A stretch of 11,108 nt of DNA from Methanobrevibacter sp. (lineage in GTDB: Archaea > Methanobacteriota > Methanobacteria > Methanobacteriales > Methanobacteriaceae). This document shows, piece after piece, positions 704-11,081 of this stretch. The position numbers were made by a program, and so were the translations under genes. The stretch is from NCBI GenBank assembly GCA_031261945.1, contig JAISIQ010000094.1, positions 1-11,108 of the forward strand, in the 5' to 3' direction. The notes beneath the pieces are model-generated. The model did not search any database, was not told the DNA's origin, and saw only the letters and a program-made list of their open reading frames with translations. Within the stretch, counting starts at the first letter, position 1. The number at the start of each line of letters is the position of its first letter.

Positions 704-3124
704 CTATTCTTCTTTAATTGTTGTAATTGCACTTACCTTTTGACCATCTTTTAATCTCATTAATCTTGTGCCTTGTGTAACACGATTATTAATAGCTATT
801 TGATCTAATGGCAATCTTATTATAATGCCATTATTAGTAACAATAACTAACTGATTATCATCATCGATTGATTTAATTGCAACAAGATTTCCTGTTTTAG
901 AGGTTTTCTTCATTATTTTACTACCTTTGCCCCCTCTATGGGTCAAACGATACTCCTCTATGTTAGTTCTCTTACTATAACCGTTTTCTGTGATTGTTAA
1001 GATTTGTTGTCCTGGCTTAGTAATTTCACAACCAACAACAACCCCTTCATCCATTCTTATTCCTATTAAACCAGAAGCATTTCTTCCAGCAGGAGAAACT
1101 TCCTTCTCATCAAAGTGTACTGATTTACCATTAGAAGATGCAAGGAATATTTCATCATTACCAGTTGTCTTTTTAACACTGATTAATGAATCATTTTCTT
1201 TTAATTTAATAGCTATTTTCCCTGTTTTTCTAATTTTAGAAAATTCTGTTAGAGCTGTTTTTTTAACTAAACCATTTTCTGTAGCAAATAAACAATATTT
1301 AGATTTTTCTTCAGTTTCGACTTTTAATACACTTTTAACAACTTCATCTTTTTCTAAAGGCAATAAATTTACAATAGGTAAACCTTTTGATTGTCTTGAA
1401 TAAATAGGAATTTCATAACCTTTTAAACGATAAACTTTTCCTTTATTTGTAAAGAACATTAAATAGTCATGAGTAGTCATGTTAATCATATCTTCAACAA
1501 AATCATCTTCATTTGTTGTCATACCTTTAACACCAACTCCTGCACGATTTTGGGTTTTGTAAGTATCTTGTTTAATACTTTTTATATAACCTCTGTTAGT
1601 TAAAGTTATAATAATATCTTCAACAGGAATTAAAGATTCATCTTCAATAAATTCAAGAGTAGAATTATCAATGATGGTTTTACGAGGAGTAGCAAAACGT
1701 TTTTTCACATCTAATAGCTCTTCTTTAATAATGTTTCGAACTTTTTCATCAGATCCTAAAATTCCTTTAAGTTCATCAATTAAATTTAAAATTTCAGTTA
1801 GTTCATCATTTATTTTTTTCCTTTCTAATCCTGAAAGTCTTCTAAGTTGCATATCTAAAATAGCTATACTCTGTTTTTCAGTTAAACCAAATTGTTCGTT
1901 GAAAATTTTCTTTATTTCATCTACTGCATCAGTTTCTTTAATAATTTTTATAACGGCATCTATATTATCTAAAGCAATAGTTAAACCTTTTAAAATATGA
2001 GCTCTTTTTTCTGACTTATTTAAATCAAATTTAGTTCTTCGTATGATAACTGATTTTTGATGTTCAATATAATGATATATGATTTCAGCAAGACTCAAAC
2101 GTTTTGGTCTATTATTTACTAACATCAAAAGATTAATACTATAATTTGATTGTAGCTGAGTTTTCTTATATAAATTATTTAATAAAACATTTACATTATA
2201 TCCTTTTTTAACATCAATAACAACTTTTATTCCATCTAAGGTAGATTCATCGTTTAAATTAGCTATTCCTTCAATCTGTTTGTCACGAACAAGCTCAGCT
2301 ATTTTAATAATTAAACTGGATTTATTTAATTGATAAGGAATTTCTCTTATGATTATCTTTTCTCTACCATCTTTTTCTTCTATATCTACTTTAGATTGTA
2401 TTGTTATTGAGCCTTTACCTGTTTCATAGGCTTTTCTAATTCCTTTATCTCCTAAAATTGCAGCAGCTGTTGGAAAATCAGGTCCTTTAATATATTCCAT
2501 TAATTCTAAAGAACTTATTTCTGGATTATCAATAAATGCAACACAACCATCTATTATTTCTCCTAAGTTGTGTGGAGGAATATTTGTTGCCATTCCTACA
2601 GCTATTCCCATATTTCCATTAACTAGAATATTTGGAAATCTTGAAGGTAGAACAACCGGTTCTTTTCTTTGGCCATCATAATTATCTGCAAAATCAACTG
2701 TGTTTTTATTGATTTCTTTTAACATTTCCATTGAGATTTTTGAAAGACGAGCTTCAGTATATCTGTATGCTCCTGCCCCATCTCCATCAATAGAACCAAA
2801 ATTTCCATGACCATCAATTAAAGTGTTACTATATGTGAAATCTTGAGCCATTCTAACCATAGATTCATAAATAGCTGAATCACCATGAGGATGGTAATGA
2901 CCCATAATAGCACCAACAGCATTAGCAGACTTTTGATGTTTTTTATTAGGAAGCATTCCCTCTTCAAACATAGTATATAAAATACGTCTATGAACAGGTT
3001 TTAAACCATCTCTAACATCAGGTATGGCACGTGAAATAATAACACTCATAGAATAATCTAAGAATGAATCTTTTACTTCTGAAGAGATATTTACTGTAGT
3101 TATTTTATCTGTTTCATTCTCCAT
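704..3124 (-). CDS. gyrA: DNA gyrase subunit A
   Basis: This is the breakage-reunion subunit of type IIA topoisomerase, which with GyrB introduces negative supercoils using ATP. The preferred start is the ATG at 3124 (806 residues): it has GATGAGG six bases upstream, whereas the in-frame ATG at 3136 has only a weak AGAAAAG. With this start the numbering coincides with E. coli GyrA: active-site tyrosine Y122 in RYTEAR, and quinolone-region residues S83 and E87 in HPHGDSAIYE. The catalytic winged-helix/tower region covers about residues 15-490, and the DNA-wrapping beta-pinwheel about 495-800. The GyrA-box is recognisable as THRGGKG ending at residue 734, a variant of bacterial QRRGGKG, which argues for gyrase rather than topoisomerase IV. 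Length is normal for the family and the gene is intact. It follows gyrB by 150 bases on the same strand. Archaeal gyrase is generally regarded as acquired from bacteria. Confidence 0.97.
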   Translation of the reverse strand: MENETDKITTVNISSEVKDSFLDYSMSVIISRAIPDVRDGLKPVHRRILYTMFEEGMLPNKKHQKSANAVGAIMGHYHPHGDSAIYESMVRMAQDFTYSNTLIDGHGNFGSIDGDGAGAYRYTEARLSKISMEMLKEINKNTVDFADNYDGQRKEPVVLPSRFPNILVNGNMGIAVGMATNIPPHNLGEIIDGCVAFIDNPEISSLELMEYIKGPDFPTAAAILGDKGIRKAYETGKGSITIQSKVDIEEKDGREKIIIREIPYQLNKSSLIIKIAELVRDKQIEGIANLNDESTLDGIKVVIDVKKGYNVNVLLNNLYKKTQLQSNYSINLLMLVNNRPKRLSLAEIIYHYIEHQKSVIIRRTKFDLNKSEKRAHILKGLTIALDNIDAVIKIIKETDAVDEIKKIFNEQFGLTEKQSIAILDMQLRRLSGLERKKINDELTEILNLIDELKGILGSDEKVRNIIKEELLDVKKRFATPRKTIIDNSTLEFIEDESLIPVEDIIITLTNRGYIKSIKQDTYKTQNRAGVGVKGMTTNEDDFVEDMINMTTHDYLMFFTNKGKVYRLKGYEIPIYSRQSKGLPIVNLLPLEKDEVVKSVLKVETEEKSKYCLFATENGLVKKTALTEFSKIRKTGKIAIKLKENDSLISVKKTTGNDEIFLASSNGKSVHFDEKEVSPAGRNASGLIGIRMDEGVVVGCEITKPGQQILTITENGYSKRTNIEEYRLTHRGGKGSKIMKKTSKTGNLVAIKSIDDDNQLVIVTNNGIIIRLPLDQIAINNRVTQGTRLMRLKDGQKVSAITTIKEE

Positions 3125-3170
3125 TTTATTCCTCATCTTTTCTAATTATAATAATTATAATGTTAATAAT

Positions 3171-3274: not shown

Positions 3275-5194
3275 TTAAACATCTAAATTTCTAACATTTA
3301 ATGCATTATCTTCAATGAATTTTCTTCGTGGAGCTACTTCTTCTCCCATTAATATTTGGAAAGTTTCATCAGCTAAAATTGCATCATCTAATTCAATTTT
3401 AAGAAGATTTCTAGTTTTTACATTCATAGTAGTTTCTTTAAGCTCAATTGAATCCATTTCACCTAAACCTTTCATTCTACCTATTTCATATTTAGTTTTT
3501 TCATCTAAGCTATTTATATATTCATCAAGTTCTTCTTGATTTAAAACATATTTATTGGTTTTTCCATGACTTATTTTAAATAATGGTGGTTGAGCAGCAT
3601 AAATATGACCATTTTCTACTAATGGTTTGAAATATCTATAAAAGAAAGTTAAAAGTAAAGTTCTAATATGAGCACCATCAACATCTGCATCTGTCATGAT
3701 TATAATCTTATCATATCTAAGTTTATCAATATCAAACTCATCCCCAATACCAGTACCAAAAGCAGTAATTAAGCTCCTAATTTCTTCATTAGCTAAAATT
3801 TTATCAAGACGAGCTTTTTCAACATTTAGTATTTTTCCACGAATTGGTAAAACAGCTTGTATTCTTGAATCTCTGCCTTGTTTAGCTGGTCCTGCAGCAG
3901 AATTTCCTTCCACAATAAAAAGTTCAGTTTCGCTTACATCTTTAGATGAACAATCAGTTAATTTTCCCCATTGGGTAGTGAGTTCCAATCCACCTTTACG
4001 TCTGGTTAGTTCACGAGCTTTTTTAGCAGCTATTCTTGCTTTAGAAGTAGCTATTGCCTTTTCAGCTATTATTTTAGCTTCATTTGGGTTTTCTATTAAG
4101 AATTTTCTGAGTCCTTCTGAGAAAATACTTGAAGCTATTTTTTTAACCTCAGAATTTCCTAATTTTGTTTTTGTTTGACCTTCAAACTGAGGATTAGGAT
4201 GTTTACAAGAAATAATCATAGCTACTCCCTCTCTAACATCCTCACCAATGAAAGGTTCATCTTTTTCTTTTAAGATATTTTTATCTTTAGCATATCTTTT
4301 TACTTCTTTTGTTAATGCTTGTTTAACACCATCTTCATGAGATCCTCCTTCATGAGTATTAATATTATTAACAAAAGAATAAATTAATTCAGAATAGCTT
4401 TTATTATATTGTAAAGCTACTTCAATAATAATATCATCTATTTCTCCTTCTACATAAATAACATCTTCATTAAGAGGTTTTTTATTCTTATTTAGGAGTT
4501 TAACATAGTCTTTTATTCCACCATTATATATGAATTCCTCTTGAACTTTTTCATCGGGTCTTTCATCTGTTAAAATTATTCTGAGTCCTTTGTTTAAAAA
4601 AGCCATTTCCCTAAGACGTGTTCTTAAGATATCATAATCAAATTTTGTGGTTTCTGTGAAAATCTCTGGATCTGGTTTGAAAGTTACTTCAGTACCACTT
4701 TTTTCTGGATCACATTTTCCAATAACTTCTAATGCTTTACTATTCTTTCCACCATTTTTAAAGCTCATTGAGTGAATGGATCCCTTTTGACAAACTTTAA
4801 CTTCTAAAAAGCTACTTAATGCATTGACAACACTAGCTCCAACACCATGTAATCCTCCAGCAACTTTATATCCTCCTCCACCGAATTTCCCTCCAGCGTG
4901 TAAAACTGTAAAGACAGTTTCAATAGTTGAAACTCCTGTTTTAGAGTTTATTCCGGTAGGTATTCCTCGTCCATTGTCGATGATTGTTATTGAATTATCT
5001 TTATTTATAAATACCTTTATAAGATCAGAATAACCAGCTAATGCTTCATCAACAGAATTATCTACAATTTCCCATACTAAATGATGAAGTCCTCGGTTAC
5101 TTGTTGAGCCAATATACATTCCAGGACGCTTTCTAACAGCTTCTAATCCTTCCAATACCTTAATATCATCATCATTGTAGGTGTTTTCACTCAT
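3275..5194 (-). CDS. gyrB: DNA gyrase subunit B
   Basis: This is the ATPase subunit of DNA gyrase, 639 residues, typical of the short (non-proteobacterial) GyrB form. Residue numbers match E. coli in the first half. The GHKL ATPase has E42 and N46 in [14 protein letters not shown]73 in DNGRGIP, and the lid [15 protein letters not shown] at 113-127. The transducer domain follows (about 220-390), then the TOPRIM domain with metal ligands E429 in VEGNSAAG and D502/D504/D506 in TDADVDGAH. The C-terminal RMKGLGEM motif is at 573-580. The ATG at 5194 is preceded by AAGGAAAAGG. Two substitutions stand out: EGNSAAG in place of the usual EGDSAGG, and Q136 where E. coli has the coumarin-contacting R136. 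All catalytic residues are kept, so the enzyme should be active. It lies upstream of gyrA, its partner subunit. Confidence 0.97.
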
Positions 5195-5805: not shown

Positions 5806-8094
5806 TTAAAGTGCTTTAAATAATTTATAAACAGTTTTCATAGTCCCATCAGAATACTCTATAGATTTACTCACAGAATACCAAACACCATTAATTTTCA
5901 AATGCTTATGATTAATATAATCATGAGTTACAAAAGAATTATCAGGATCATTATTAAAAACCTTAGCCTTAATCCACTTAGACTGACCCCTCAAACTACC
6001 ACTCTTAAGAGAAGTATCAGCATGCACCCACCTCTTATTAATATACACCTTAGTCCACACATGAGCCCCACCATAAACATTCGCCTTATACACATAAATA
6101 GCAGGAATATTCGCAGCCCTAAACATCGCCACAGCCAAATGAGTATTATCAAGACAATTACCATTCTTCCTATCTAAAGTACCATCCGAACCAAAACGAG
6201 TACCACCATAAACCGCATTATCATACTTAATATTCTTCTTAATCCAATCCCAAATACCATTAGCAATCGCCTTATCAGTCCTTTTAGACGGGTTTATACT
6301 ACTAATAATCTTTTTCACAACACGCTTAATTTTAGGATTATTCTTATTACAATCAGTTGATGAGGCAAGATACTTAGTCCAATCAGACCTAATCCTCTTA
6401 CTAACAGAAGTCTTAAACAAATACTTCTTATTAATCTTCTTAGCAATACGCTTACCATTCAAAAAAGTCTGAGTAACCTTAGTCCCCTTTTTAAGATAAT
6501 AAGTAACCCTCTTCTGCTCATTCCACCGATACTTCTTCTTATTCTTATTATTAATTAAAACCCACTTAGTAGAACGAGCAACCAACCTATTAACCCAATT
6601 TTTCACAGACTTCTTTTTAAACAAAGCATACTTCCCATTCTTAATAGAATAATAATTAGTTGAAATCTTCGCTAAAACCTTCTTATACTTATTAACAGTG
6701 ATCTTTGCATAAACTTTCACAACCTTCTTATAAGTCCTAGCCTTTAAAATTGAAGTTACAACCACCTTCTTATTTGTAACCTTCAAAAAAGACCTAGTTG
6801 ATGATTGAGAATACAAAGATGTTTTCAAAAAAGTAGCCACTACCTCATGAGACTTAATTGCGAACTTGCCAGTATTAATCTTAAAAACAGCACCACCATT
6901 AGAATTTGTTTTTGAACTATACCTCAGCTTATTCACAGTCAACTTTATATTCTGACCAGAAACCTTATTTGACTGCTTAGGAGTCTTACCATCAACCTTC
7001 AAGACTCCAGAATTATAAATCGCATTCAAAACATTATTACCACCAGTCAAAGAAACAGAAATAGTAGCCACATTACTACAATTAACATAACGAGGAACAG
7101 AAATAACAAGCTTAGAAGAAGCACGATTATTAGCAAAGTTCGAATTATAAATATCTAAATTAGAAGAACTAAAAACAGCCCCACCATTAGAAGAAGCAAC
7201 ATTATTTAAAAAACTAGAATCCCTAATAGTAACCACAGAATTCTTAACAAAAACAGCACCACCATTACGAGCACTATTACCCTCAAAAATAGAATTCATA
7301 ACATTTGAAGCCATACTGTTTTCAAAAAATATTCCTCCCCCATCCCCCACACCATTAGAAGAAGAAGCATTATTATTCCTAAAAACACAATCTGAAATAT
7401 AATTATTATCAGAATACAAAACCATCGCACTATTACCATTATTAACAAAATTAGAATAAAGAACATTGACAGGATAATAAGACTTAATAGCAGAACCTTT
7501 ATTATTACTAAAATTAGAATAAGAAATTTCAGAATCTAAAAACCAGCCCGAATACTCATTAGTTTTCAAAATATTAACAGCAGCGAAACCTTTACCACCA
7601 CAGTTTATAAAAGAACAATTCTCAAGAAACACATTCCCAAAAACAGACAAAGCACCAACAGAATCATAAGTAGAATTCCCATTAACAAAATTAACATTAG
7701 CAAAAGTTACATTAAAACCCATAATGTTAAAAATCCCACTTAAACCTCTTGCATCCAAAACTGCCCTATTCTCATTAGACTGGCCCCTAAAAGTCAAATT
7801 ATTAGAATTCACATCAATAACTTTATTATCACCATAATATGTCTTATTCCCTAATTCAATAATTTTAGGCTGAGTATTAACAGATTCCTTCTCAATCTCC
7901 TCAACAACATCACTAATATTTGAAAAAGAATCACCTTCAACCTCAAAATGTTCGCCACTATCAAGATTACCACCATCTTCAACAGCAAAAACCGCTGAAG
8001 TATAAACTAAGCACAAAACTGTTGAAAGAATCAATATTCCCAATAACCTTCCAAACACACTAGACTTAATAAAATCAACACCCTTTTCAGTCAA
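5806..8094 (-). CDS. Exported beta-helix surface protein with C71/transglutaminase-like domain
   Basis: This 762-residue protein is an adhesin-like protein with a putative cell-wall enzyme domain. The order is: signal peptide with hydrophobic core about 13-33 and likely cleavage after A37 (SAVFA/VEDGG); right-handed beta-helix about 80-330 with repeated GGAVF and SxFxNN motifs; an Ig-like module about 330-440; a lysine-rich stretch about 440-565; and a papain/transglutaminase-fold domain about 575-740. The catalytic triad is visible as C647 in RKNGNCLDNTHL, H678 in GGAHVWTKVYI and D693 in WVHADTS. The GTLDRKNGNC block and the YLASSTDC/IK region upstream resemble peptidase C71, the pseudomurein endoisopeptidases of methanogen phages and hosts. 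I infer pseudomurein cleavage or remodelling; a plain transglutaminase-like role is possible. The start is a TTG preceded by GTGATC, an exact anti-Shine-Dalgarno match at good spacing; no ATG start is available nearby. Lys codons are mostly AAG, unlike the AAA-rich gyrase genes. Confidence 0.88.
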   Translation of the reverse strand: MTEKGVDFIKSSVFGRLLGILILSTVLCLVYTSAVFAVEDGGNLDSGEHFEVEGDSFSNISDVVEEIEKESVNTQPKIIELGNKTYYGDNKVIDVNSNNLTFRGQSNENRAVLDARGLSGIFNIMGFNVTFANVNFVNGNSTYDSVGALSVFGNVFLENCSFINCGGKGFAAVNILKTNEYSGWFLDSEISYSNFSNNKGSAIKSYYPVNVLYSNFVNNGNSAMVLYSDNNYISDCVFRNNNASSSNGVGDGGGIFFENSMASNVMNSIFEGNSARNGGAVFVKNSVVTIRDSSFLNNVASSNGGAVFSSSNLDIYNSNFANNRASSKLVISVPRYVNCSNVATISVSLTGGNNVLNAIYNSGVLKVDGKTPKQSNKVSGQNIKLTVNKLRYSSKTNSNGGAVFKINTGKFAIKSHEVVATFLKTSLYSQSSTRSFLKVTNKKVVVTSILKARTYKKVVKVYAKITVNKYKKVLAKISTNYYSIKNGKYALFKKKSVKNWVNRLVARSTKWVLINNKNKKKYRWNEQKRVTYYLKKGTKVTQTFLNGKRIAKKINKKYLFKTSVSKRIRSDWTKYLASSTDCNKNNPKIKRVVKKIISSINPSKRTDKAIANGIWDWIKKNIKYDNAVYGGTRFGSDGTLDRKNGNCLDNTHLAVAMFRAANIPAIYVYKANVYGGAHVWTKVYINKRWVHADTSLKSGSLRGQSKWIKAKVFNNDPDNSFVTHDYINHKHLKINGVWYSVSKSIEYSDGTMKTVYKLFKAL

Positions 8095-10134: not shown

Positions 10135-10180
10135 TTTAACTACTTTTTCTATTTTTTATTAACATAATATTGGGATAAAT

Positions 10181-10203
10181 ATGCATAAAATATATAAATG
10201 CAT
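10181..10203 (-). promoter_or_regulatory. TATA box flanked by two ATGCAT palindromes
   Basis: The minus strand carries TTTATATA (10198-10191), 57 bases upstream of the RNase J-like start; transcription would begin near 10170. The box is bracketed by two copies of the palindromic hexamer ATGCAT (10181-10186 and 10198-10203), giving a near-symmetrical element. Because it is nearly symmetrical it could also drive a plus-strand transcript starting near 10222, right at the edge of the self-pairing element. Confidence 0.45.
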
Positions 10204-10258
10204 AATATAAATTTATAATCATAATGTAGGTTGGTGAGTTGTGTAACTATCCTTAACT

Positions 10259-10345
10259 TTACTTAATTAGGAAGTATATAGCTATTACGTTTCGGAGTAT
10301 TAGAACTATCACTAATACAAGCGACAGCATACTTTCAAATGGCAA
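10259..10345 (-). CDS. 28-residue hydrophobic peptide, type I toxin-like
   Basis: This short ORF starts with TTG at 10345, preceded by GGAGGTGAT with 8 bases between GGAGG and the start, the best ribosome binding site in the window together with that of the DUF2283 gene. The peptide begins MPFESMLSLVL and continues as an almost uninterrupted hydrophobic segment (residues 7-17 and 20-27), broken by Arg18-Asn19 and ending in Lys28. The N-terminal pattern of two or three residues followed by aromatic-Glu-Ser/Ala-Met/Leu-x-Leu is that of Gram-positive holin-like/type I toxin peptides. I infer a small membrane peptide, perhaps toxic and controlled by RNA structure or antisense RNA. A leader peptide for the RNase J-like gene 125 bases downstream is an alternative. 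There is no direct evidence that it is translated. Confidence 0.5.
   Translation of the reverse strand: MPFESMLSLVLVIVLILRNVIAIYFLIK
10297..10318 (-). other. Hairpin inside the small ORF
   Basis: GTATTAG and CTAATAC form a 7-bp stem around an 8-base loop, within the codons for the hydrophobic core. In a transcript this could slow ribosomes or form part of the overall fold. Confidence 0.4.
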
Positions 10346-10349
10346 TACT

Positions 10350-10358
10350 ATCACCTCC
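10350..10358 (-). promoter_or_regulatory. Perfect Shine-Dalgarno of the small ORF
   Basis: GGAGGTGAT on the minus strand is complementary to nine bases of the archaeal 16S rRNA 3' end. It decides the TTG start at 10345. Such an intact site in a region otherwise devoid of long ORFs is the main argument that the 28-codon frame is real. Confidence 0.6.
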
Positions 10359-10393
10359 TACTTATTTAGTAAAAGTAAAAGGCTAATGTACAC

Positions 10394-10418
10394 TTGGTGT
10401 AAAAATTAGTGTATGCCT
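10394..10418. repeat. Direct repeat, copy 1 (inside the element)
   Basis: The plus strand begins TTGGTGTAAAA and ends GTGTATGCCT. Copy 2 at 10562-10583 has the same two blocks with three fewer bases between them. Copy 1 lies in the leader of the predicted toxin-like mRNA and overlaps a hairpin made by CTAAT/ATTAG and ACAC/GTGT arms (about 10383-10409). Confidence 0.65.
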
Positions 10419-10436
10419 CGTACTTTCCTTGAAATT

Positions 10437-10455
10437 AACAATACAATGTATTGTT
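10437..10455. other. Strong 8-bp hairpin in the leader of the small ORF
   Basis: AACAATACAATGTATTGTT is an odd-length near-perfect palindrome that gives an 8-bp stem with a 3-base loop on either strand. Part of it (ACAATGTAT) recurs at 10550-10558 next to direct-repeat copy 2. Confidence 0.5.
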
Positions 10456-10522
10456 TTATTCAACAAACAGTATTTACTAGCTATTAACTCACCAAGCCTA
10501 CAACTAATATTATAATCTTTTT

Positions 10523-10530
10523 AATATAAA
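10523..10530 (-). promoter_or_regulatory. TATA-box candidate for the structured transcript
   Basis: The minus strand reads TTTATATT. The usual 22-27 base spacing puts the start of transcription at about 10502, the outer base of the 16-bp terminal pairing. A second TATA-like word lies just upstream (10533-10541). Confidence 0.45.
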
Positions 10531-10561
10531 TATTTATATAGTATAAAAAACAATGTATTTA

Positions 10562-10583
10562 TTGGTGTAAAAGGTGTATGCCT
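10562..10583. repeat. Direct repeat, copy 2 (outside the element)
   Basis: It matches copy 1 at 10394-10418 in both the TTGGTGTAAAA block and the GTGTATGCCT block. It lies just upstream of the predicted promoter of the structured transcript and touches the hairpin at 10583-10614. Confidence 0.65.
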
Positions 10584-10614
10584 AATAGCTAGCTTTATAT
10601 TAGCTAGCTAATTA
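10583..10614. terminator. 12-bp hairpin built of TAGCTAGCT arms
   Basis: TAATAGCTAGCT (10583-10594) pairs with AGCTAGCTAATTA (10602-10614) with one bulged A, around a 7-base loop. On the plus strand it is followed by T-rich sequence (10615-10640), so it would resemble an intrinsic terminator for a plus-strand transcript. On the minus strand it lies about 95 bases beyond the DUF2283 stop codon and may end that gene instead. Its role is undecided. Confidence 0.4.
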
Positions 10615-10706
10615 CTTCTTATTTTTATTAATTATTTAACTAATATCTGCTAATAACAGTTTATTACTCCTATTTCTTTAATCGAGATTGTTTTAAAATT
10701 AATATA

Positions 10707-11081
10707 TTAAGTAATAGCTAATTCTACTTCAGATTCAGGAATATTGAATTCATTGATAGTTTTAGGATTTAGAGGTCTATTTTGTTCTTTATTATGAACT
10801 TTAACTTTGAATTTAGCTTCAAGAGATATAGTTTTTTCAGTAATTTTAATTGTAAAAACACCTTGAAGATCCCTAATTAGATTAAATTTACTTGTATTTA
10901 ATATTTTAGAAGCATCTAAAATTTCTAAAGCAGCAGGATTATTTTTTTCATCAAAATCCATAATTATGCCAGTATCTATCTCAATAGATTGATTATGTTC
11001 ATATTCAGATTTCTTTTCAATAAATAAAGCGTCTGCTTGAGAATCATACTCATAATCCATTTCAAGTAAATCATTGCTCAT
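10707..11081 (-). CDS. DUF2283-type small protein
   Basis: This 124-residue protein has a DUF2283-like core in residues 8-62: the YDSQADALFIE block, the ELD-like acidic strand SIEIDTGIIMDFDEKNNP and the AALEILDASKIL block, which correspond to the family's pattern of YD..ADALYI, D.GVIVDYDE and GIEIL.AS. The C-terminal half (about 63-124) is a beta-rich/charged extension I do not recognise. The family has no established biochemical activity; members are often found next to small toxin-like proteins (for example DUF4258), which suggests a partner or antitoxin-like role, but that is inference and any upstream partner would lie outside the window. There is no signal peptide or membrane segment, so it should be cytoplasmic. 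The ATG at 11081 has a clear GGAGGA ribosome binding site seven bases upstream. Confidence 0.8.
   Translation of the reverse strand: MSNDLLEMDYEYDSQADALFIEKKSEYEHNQSIEIDTGIIMDFDEKNNPAALEILDASKILNTSKFNLIRDLQGVFTIKITEKTISLEAKFKVKVHNKEQNRPLNPKTINEFNIPESEVELAIT

Follow-up and report, generated by a model that had tools for sequence, protein, structure and literature searches.

The window, meaning here the whole stretch of 11,108 nucleotides of Methanobrevibacter DNA that was analysed, carries on its minus strand a short frame (10345-10259) that runs TTG CCA TTT GAA ... AAG TAA and encodes a hydrophobic peptide with a GRAVY of 1.97 if codon 1 is taken as Leu. The initial annotation had described a hydrophobic, TTG-started frame of 28 codons behind a Shine-Dalgarno sequence GGAGGTGAT, and this description proved correct; the Shine-Dalgarno (10358-10350) is separated from the TTG by 4 nt. 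The sequence GGAGGTGA occurs only once on the two strands of the window. In 300 dinucleotide shuffles of the window, frames of 20-60 codons behind GGAGGTGA arose at a rate of 0.007 per shuffled window, and none had a GRAVY above 1.5. An in-frame GTG three codons further upstream, inside the Shine-Dalgarno, makes a longer frame possible. The TTG is the likelier start, however, because the codon aligned to it in the other five loci of group A (one of two groups of related loci, see below) is TTG in two cases, ATG in two and CTG in one, where CTG would be the start of G001b. The frame is only one part of a two-RNA locus that spans about 10222-10627 and comprises the following features:

10259..10345, minus strand: putative toxin ORF of 28 codons plus stop with TTG start, MPFESMLSLVLVIVLILRNVIAIYFLIK, from the sequence and its codon-like conservation in relatives
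10350..10358, minus strand: Shine-Dalgarno GGAGGTGAT, predicted to be base-paired within the messenger (unpaired probability of the core 0.00)
10222..10505, minus strand: predicted toxin messenger of about 285 nt, its ends placed by the TATA element and the end-to-end pairing
10486..10501, minus strand: 5' arm of the predicted clamp, GTAGGCTTGGTGAGTT, which pairs with AACTCACCAACCTAC in the fold
10226..10240, minus strand: 3' arm of the predicted clamp, AACTCACCAACCTAC, which pairs with GTAGGCTTGGTGAGTT in the fold
10394..10418, minus strand: part of the leader that the antisense RNA would target, some 50-73 nt ahead of the start codon, from predicted pairs
10523..10540, no strand: TATA-like, nearly palindromic element that separates the predicted transcripts (1 match with at most 2 mismatches, 0.05 expected)
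10557..10622, plus strand: predicted small RNA, the candidate antitoxin, running divergently to the messenger, with approximate ends
10562..10583, plus strand: seed, the antisense portion of this small RNA, TTGGTGTAAAAGGTGTATGCCT, from its complementarity to the leader
10586..10610, plus strand: hairpin of the small RNA that resembles a terminator and leads into a T-rich tail, from a hairpin scan

On the minus strand the stretch 10210-10520 folds with -95.2 kcal/mol (z -7.5), a value that none of 100 shuffles reaches; its plus strand likewise surpasses shuffles, by a smaller margin (z -5.0). The predicted fold pairs the Shine-Dalgarno with the 3' part of the toxin frame, and the ribosome site would be held in structure in the full-length messenger. 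In the model, neither trimming of the window messenger by 25 nt at either end nor binding of the small RNA changes the unpaired probability of the Shine-Dalgarno, which stays at 0.00; the predictions would thus account better for silence than for activation. The small RNA on the plus strand (about 10557-10622) had been absent from the initial annotation. The starts of both predicted transcripts were set from the TATA-like element at 10523-10540. Positions 10562-10583 of the small RNA form 22 predicted pairs with the leader at 10418-10394 (-31.3 kcal/mol), and its hairpin is the only terminator-like site on either strand of 10150-10720 (0.1 expected). The small-RNA region itself (10540-10640) folds no better than shuffles (z -1.0). 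Judged from sequence, the small RNA gene would be divergent from the toxin gene and share a short complementarity with its messenger.

These features suggest that an archaeon carries a module resembling type I toxin-antitoxin systems, of the divergent kind exemplified by TisB/IstR-1 and ZorO/OrzO, and we put the probability of this reading at roughly three in four. The computed evidence consists of the frame with its codon-like conservation, the fold of the messenger, the complementarity and its locus-specific co-variation, and the terminator-like hairpin. We infer that both RNAs are transcribed, back-to-back from a shared TATA region, the minus strand yielding a messenger of about 285 nt for a 28-residue membrane peptide and the plus strand a small RNA of about 65 nt. 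The full-length messenger would be self-closed, with its 5' and 3' ends paired and its Shine-Dalgarno paired inside the coding region, and would be translated poorly. The 5' part of the small RNA would pair with the leader hairpin, which precedes the start codon by about 50-70 nt; this pairing may either block ribosome loading or mark the messenger for decay. Once the small RNA is exhausted or the messenger processed, the peptide would be made and enter the cytoplasmic membrane, which it may depolarise or permeabilise, with toxicity as the presumed outcome. If this reading is true, membrane peptides under antisense silencing either originated in a domain whose lipids and RNA decay are different or found their way into it, and the loci would offer a natural collection of separate small RNA-messenger pairs with which to study archaeal antisense control. 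The toxin frames are short enough to be missed by usual gene calling.

End-to-end pairing of the messenger hides the ribosome site in hok/sok, as is predicted here, but Sok overlaps hok and Hok is longer, whereas here the small RNA is divergent and the complementarity short. The antitoxins of Hol_Tox toxins (PF16935) overlap the toxin gene; a short hydrophobic peptide is common to these systems and the present locus, which has no match to the profile. The initial annotation had proposed a type I toxin-like archaeal membrane peptide that resembles holin-like toxins of Gram-positive bacteria. The first part of this proposal gains strength, as the frame and Shine-Dalgarno are kept with codon-like change and a predicted divergent antisense RNA, whose complementarity co-varies, adjoins them, but the holin-like resemblance finds no support: no Hol_Tox match was obtained, and the peptide start MPFES is kept in the two closest relatives only and replaced elsewhere by LQLEY, MDIYY or MSDN/MSDD. 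The Hol_Tox profile matched none of three peptides at E up to 10, where the filters of HMMER drop most matches above about 0.1, and none of 40 genomes, among them that of the window, had a match above the PF16935 cut-off. Matches under the cut-off occurred in six of these genomes (E 0.018-0.087), none at toxin loci, and control genomes had matches in 5 of 14 cases, 2 over the cut-off. DUF4083 was rejected as a family name (E 0.018-0.038, under the cut-off).

Excerpts of published reports allow comparison with characterised systems. Divergent-antitoxin type I loci with 18-21 nt of pairing include TisAB-IstR, ShoB-OhsC and Zor-Orz (PMC3919570), and TisB and ZorO are peptides of 29 residues whose ribosome sites are buried or standby-dependent (PMC8309996). 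As described in these excerpts, zorO/orzO of Escherichia coli O157:H7 resembles the present locus in its hydrophobic peptide (29 residues, 28-29 here), its divergent small RNA, the 18-19 nt of complementarity to the messenger in the 5' end of that RNA (here in its 5' part), a 5' UTR structure that buries the ribosome site, and a variable pairing stretch that separates paralogues (PMC3919570, PMC8309996). This likeness is one of described features, and the archaeal host and the messenger ends clamped together set the present locus apart. Repression by OrzO requires RNase III. The tisB/istR-1 pair of E. coli is similar in its 29-residue peptide, its trans-acting small RNA and its pairing at a standby site that lies upstream of the ribosome site (PMC8309996), and in its divergent arrangement (PMC3919570); TisB differs in having charges along one helix face, and it is SOS-induced (PMC8309996). 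According to an excerpt from 2025, type I systems were known only from Proteobacteria, Firmicutes and Tenericutes until the cyanobacterial msoT1/msoA1 was added, a recent extension beyond the earlier phyla that differs from the present case in being bacterial and in having been found via a search for overlapping toxin-antitoxin pairs (PMC12390103). The excerpted description of TADB 3.0 gives 16,009 type I loci predicted from known families in bacterial and archaeal genomes, with the archaeal share unspecified, and a type I protein range of 30-500 residues, outside of which a peptide of 28-29 residues would fall (PMC10767807). Antisense RNAs to type II systems are reported from archaea (PMC6523106). 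In the excerpted text of a paper on Methanosarcina small RNAs, a type I system is cited only from another study (PMC3510493), and that of a review on Clostridia speaks of archaeal systems in general terms (PMC6563280). In the open-licence literature, so far as its text was accessible, we found no archaeal type I system; most subscription papers lie outside this scope, and priority is not proven. As far as found, this kind of locus is described in bacteria only and lacks a known archaeal type I precedent. The related loci probably constitute a first archaeal type I family, characterised by self-clamped messengers, membrane toxins of 28-29 residues, their own divergent antisense RNAs, and a fast-changing pairing code that separates paralogues of the same genome.

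A DNA search of 60 genomes matched four, namely the window's own, G016, G001 and G027, where the match is a 32-nt stretch and was not counted. Searches with peptide alignments and one covariance model, in 138 genomes of the family and then 150 of the order, delineated two groups. Group A contains the window, G016a, G001a, G001b, G023a and G009a; group B, with peptides starting MSDN or MSDD, contains G033b, G031b1, G031b2, G025b1, G025b2, G062b, G023b, G061b1, G061b2, G061b3 and the frameshifted G016b. The group B alignment revealed no further members in 151 genomes of the phylum, one more than in the order. The layout with an open frame is found at 16 loci in 10 of the 138 family genomes and in 3 of 17 genera. 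The open frames encode 28-29 residues (26 in one copy), all below 60, with GRAVY values of 1.19-2.09, and every one of the 16 adjoins a small-RNA copy. Most B loci have GAGATTCATT..AATGAATCTC or a close variant at the hairpin position, and this exact hairpin occurs in 5 of 138 genomes, all with group B copies, although those of G016 are only broken ones.

The same anatomy, and a conserved frame, would be expected if the peptide were a small regulatory membrane protein that is not a toxin but is controlled by a divergent antisense RNA. This explanation could also draw on G016a and G001a, which belong to different genera and both adjoin what we take to be a lysyl-tRNA synthetase-like gene (L002 3-767, minus strand, and L003 2887-3297, plus strand); with the same neighbour in different genera, their location may be inherited rather than newly acquired. 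The flanks of four A loci differ apart from this common neighbour, however, the occurrence in the family is patchy, and some genomes harbour multiple copies with private pairing sequences. Such patchiness and copy variation, together with decayed copies and remnants consisting of the small RNA alone, are more in keeping with an addiction-type module than with a regulator that has one fixed partner; a regulatory protein appears unlikely. The initial annotation had named frame-breaking changes in related loci as evidence against it, and three such copies do exist alongside the 16 open frames: the frames of G016b and G016:C13 are broken beside a small-RNA copy (degraded in G016:C13), and G001:C98 has lost both the start and the small RNA. 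At G023:C23 (11447 and 14216), G023:C17, G023:C4 and G023:C250 a small-RNA copy is present but a whole toxin frame is not; G023:C250 looks like a deletion between the two repeats. G061b3, whose frame ends at 26 codons, and G025b1, with an AT-rich insert of about 47 nt between Shine-Dalgarno and ATG, may be decaying. A possible exception to this pattern is G023:C89, which retains the Shine-Dalgarno and a C-terminally shortened frame of 23 codons and where neither small RNA nor leader hairpin was found in the 360 nt read. The decay pattern is suggestive only, given how few loci are involved and that the toxin was the means of finding them.

Weak peptide matches that by eye lack the layout were seen at L012, L013, L017, L018, L044, L046, L071, L079, L095, L097 and L111. 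A mechanical scan of 90 loci (repeated places included) for a Shine-Dalgarno plus frame returned members only, among them the shortened G023:C89, and did not return members with a displaced or lost start. Plasmid records contained no match, and in viral contigs none was confirmed with either peptide alignment. Palindromic repeats, AAAATCGAAGATTTTC-like or similar, are scattered in the genomes of L074 (G025:C1, about 2000100), L109, L017 and L018; one of them separates the Shine-Dalgarno from the ATG in a toxin copy, and the weak peptide matches in G028 and G160 (L017, L018) coincide with such repeats.

The strong fold and the conserved 5'/3' clamp could also indicate that the minus-strand element is a structured non-coding RNA with an accidental frame. 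A consensus of nine B messengers (of 11; G025b1 and G016b omitted) contains the clamp together with the leader hairpin and the Shine-Dalgarno helix. Of its 42 pairs, 7 survive a two-sided change, including 5 of the clamp's 15, each in one sequence, and its covariation term is small (-1.11). The predicted unpaired probability of the Shine-Dalgarno is at most 0.20 in 15 of 17 loci, the exceptions being G025b1 (0.32) and G061b1 (0.77). The frame, however, evolves in a codon-like manner. In the nine gapless B loci (the 11 minus G061b3 and G016b) frame 0 is free of stops, compared with 38 and 37 stops in frames 1 and 2, and mean pairwise differences at codon positions 1/2/3 are 0.196/0.170/0.307. 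Frame 0 is likewise without stop in five of the six A loci (G001b was omitted due to an indel), with differences of 0.363/0.126/0.385; changes at the third position are in excess in both sets, and one 3-nt indel among the relatives preserves the frame. BLOSUM means favour frame 0 in the pooled A subgroups (3.01 vs 1.55 and 1.97) and the pair G023a/G009a (3.14 vs 2.38 and 2.19), but not within B (3.01 vs 3.07 and 2.78) or in the three closest A loci (4.31 vs 4.08 and 4.69); thus, the coding argument rests on stops and codon positions. Moreover, the Shine-Dalgarno is kept at start-codon distance in two groups with different peptides, and Rfam 15 assigns no family at gathering or permissive thresholds (two weak matches, E 2.9 and 5.3, fall far under the cut-offs), which together render a non-coding RNA highly improbable. 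Messengers of group B (L041/L073, L091, L074, L093) have a second AGGAGGT stretch after the stop codon, in the 3' UTR. It could be a built-in switch that competes with the Shine-Dalgarno for a stretch with CTCC located within the toxin frame.

Returning to the toxin-antitoxin-like reading, the pairing sequence varies from locus to locus, yet fits best within most loci. With anchors set by eye, and for the A loci placed on the repeats themselves, the local score over 17 loci is 32.9 for cognate and 14.8 for non-cognate combinations, and none of 100,000 permutations reaches the cognate sum; by group, the figures are 0 of 100,000 for the 11 B loci and 284 of 100,000 for the six A loci. Duplex energies agree (-24.7 vs -11.0 kcal/mol; 0 of 100,000 permutations). 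By anchored energies the cognate is strictly best in 13/17 rows (missed by G016a, G031b2, G061b2 and G016b) and in 12/17 columns (missed by G001a, G031b2, G025b2, G023b and G061b2). G016a and G001a are nearly identical, the pairing of G061b2 is weak (10 bp, -12.1) and not above non-cognates, and the frameshifted G016b pairs poorly. This matrix retains G016b (frameshift) and omits eight rows whose leader, small RNA or frame is absent or not complete, namely G023:C89, G016:C13, G001:C98, G023:C17, G023:C4, G023:C23 at 11447 and 14216, and G023:C250. Small RNA and leader form 10-23 predicted pairs, at least 14 in 13/17 loci and at least 18 in 6/17. Without anchors, no more than 25 of 1000 shuffles do as well as the real sequence at nine of 17 loci, seven loci rank first in their row, and permutations reach the sum in 0 of 20,000 cases (B alone, 1 of 20,000); here the AT-rich background obscures much of the signal. 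Folding of whole-segment duplexes, which placed the cognate leader first in 9/17 rows, was too noisy in AT-rich DNA and was replaced by the local and anchored tests. In a four-locus alignment of group A, a second conserved block, located upstream of the TATA element, is a repeat of the leader loop and varies in step with it (upstream GGCATACACCTTTTACACC and leader GGCATACACTAATTTTTACACC in the window, GGCAAGTACCTTTTTCACC and GGCAAGTACTATTTTTTCACC in G016a). Differences inside the matches comprise 19 transversions and 20 transitions, 15 of which still allow a G-U pair between the RNAs and 5 of which do not. That the upstream and leader repeats are instead DNA sites of a protein such as a repressor or transposase, and the inverted ends those of a mobile element, would suit the multiple copies in mostly different neighbourhoods, the existence of fragments (e.g., G001:C125 10386-10446) and the member matches of six relatives, which never lie beside their copy of the window's neighbouring gene, but is very improbable given this excess of G-U-compatible transitions, a repeat that ends at the hairpin on one side, and sequences that differ among paralogues of the same genome (G001, G025, G031, G061), as one DNA-binding protein would hardly allow.

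A fixed link of the locus to the neighbouring metallo-beta-lactamase gene was considered and rejected, as the gene is found in 6 of 8 genomes and no member match lies beside any of its copies. About 360 nt upstream of this gene in G001, G033, G016, G009 and G025 contain no cassette; in the sixth genome (G023:C324) the sequence was viewed inside the gene only. At L123 (G001:C118), a tandem array of TAGGTATGAGTATTGGTTTATAGATTTTTAGGATATTT-like units precedes the metallo-beta-lactamase gene. The minus strand of the window presumably encodes, in order, DNA gyrase B-like (3275-5194) and A-like (704-3136) proteins. A secreted-looking protein of 762 residues (5806-8094, minus strand) has a C-terminal transglutaminase-like domain (PF01841, E 1e-16) and repeats that resemble Chlam_PMP under the cut-off; it is probably a cell-surface protein. 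The small-RNA locus is adjoined by a gene for a DUF2283 protein (10707-11081, minus strand; PF10049, E 7.5e-12), and positions 1-240 of the window consist of AT-rich, low-complexity ATT/ATA-like repeats.
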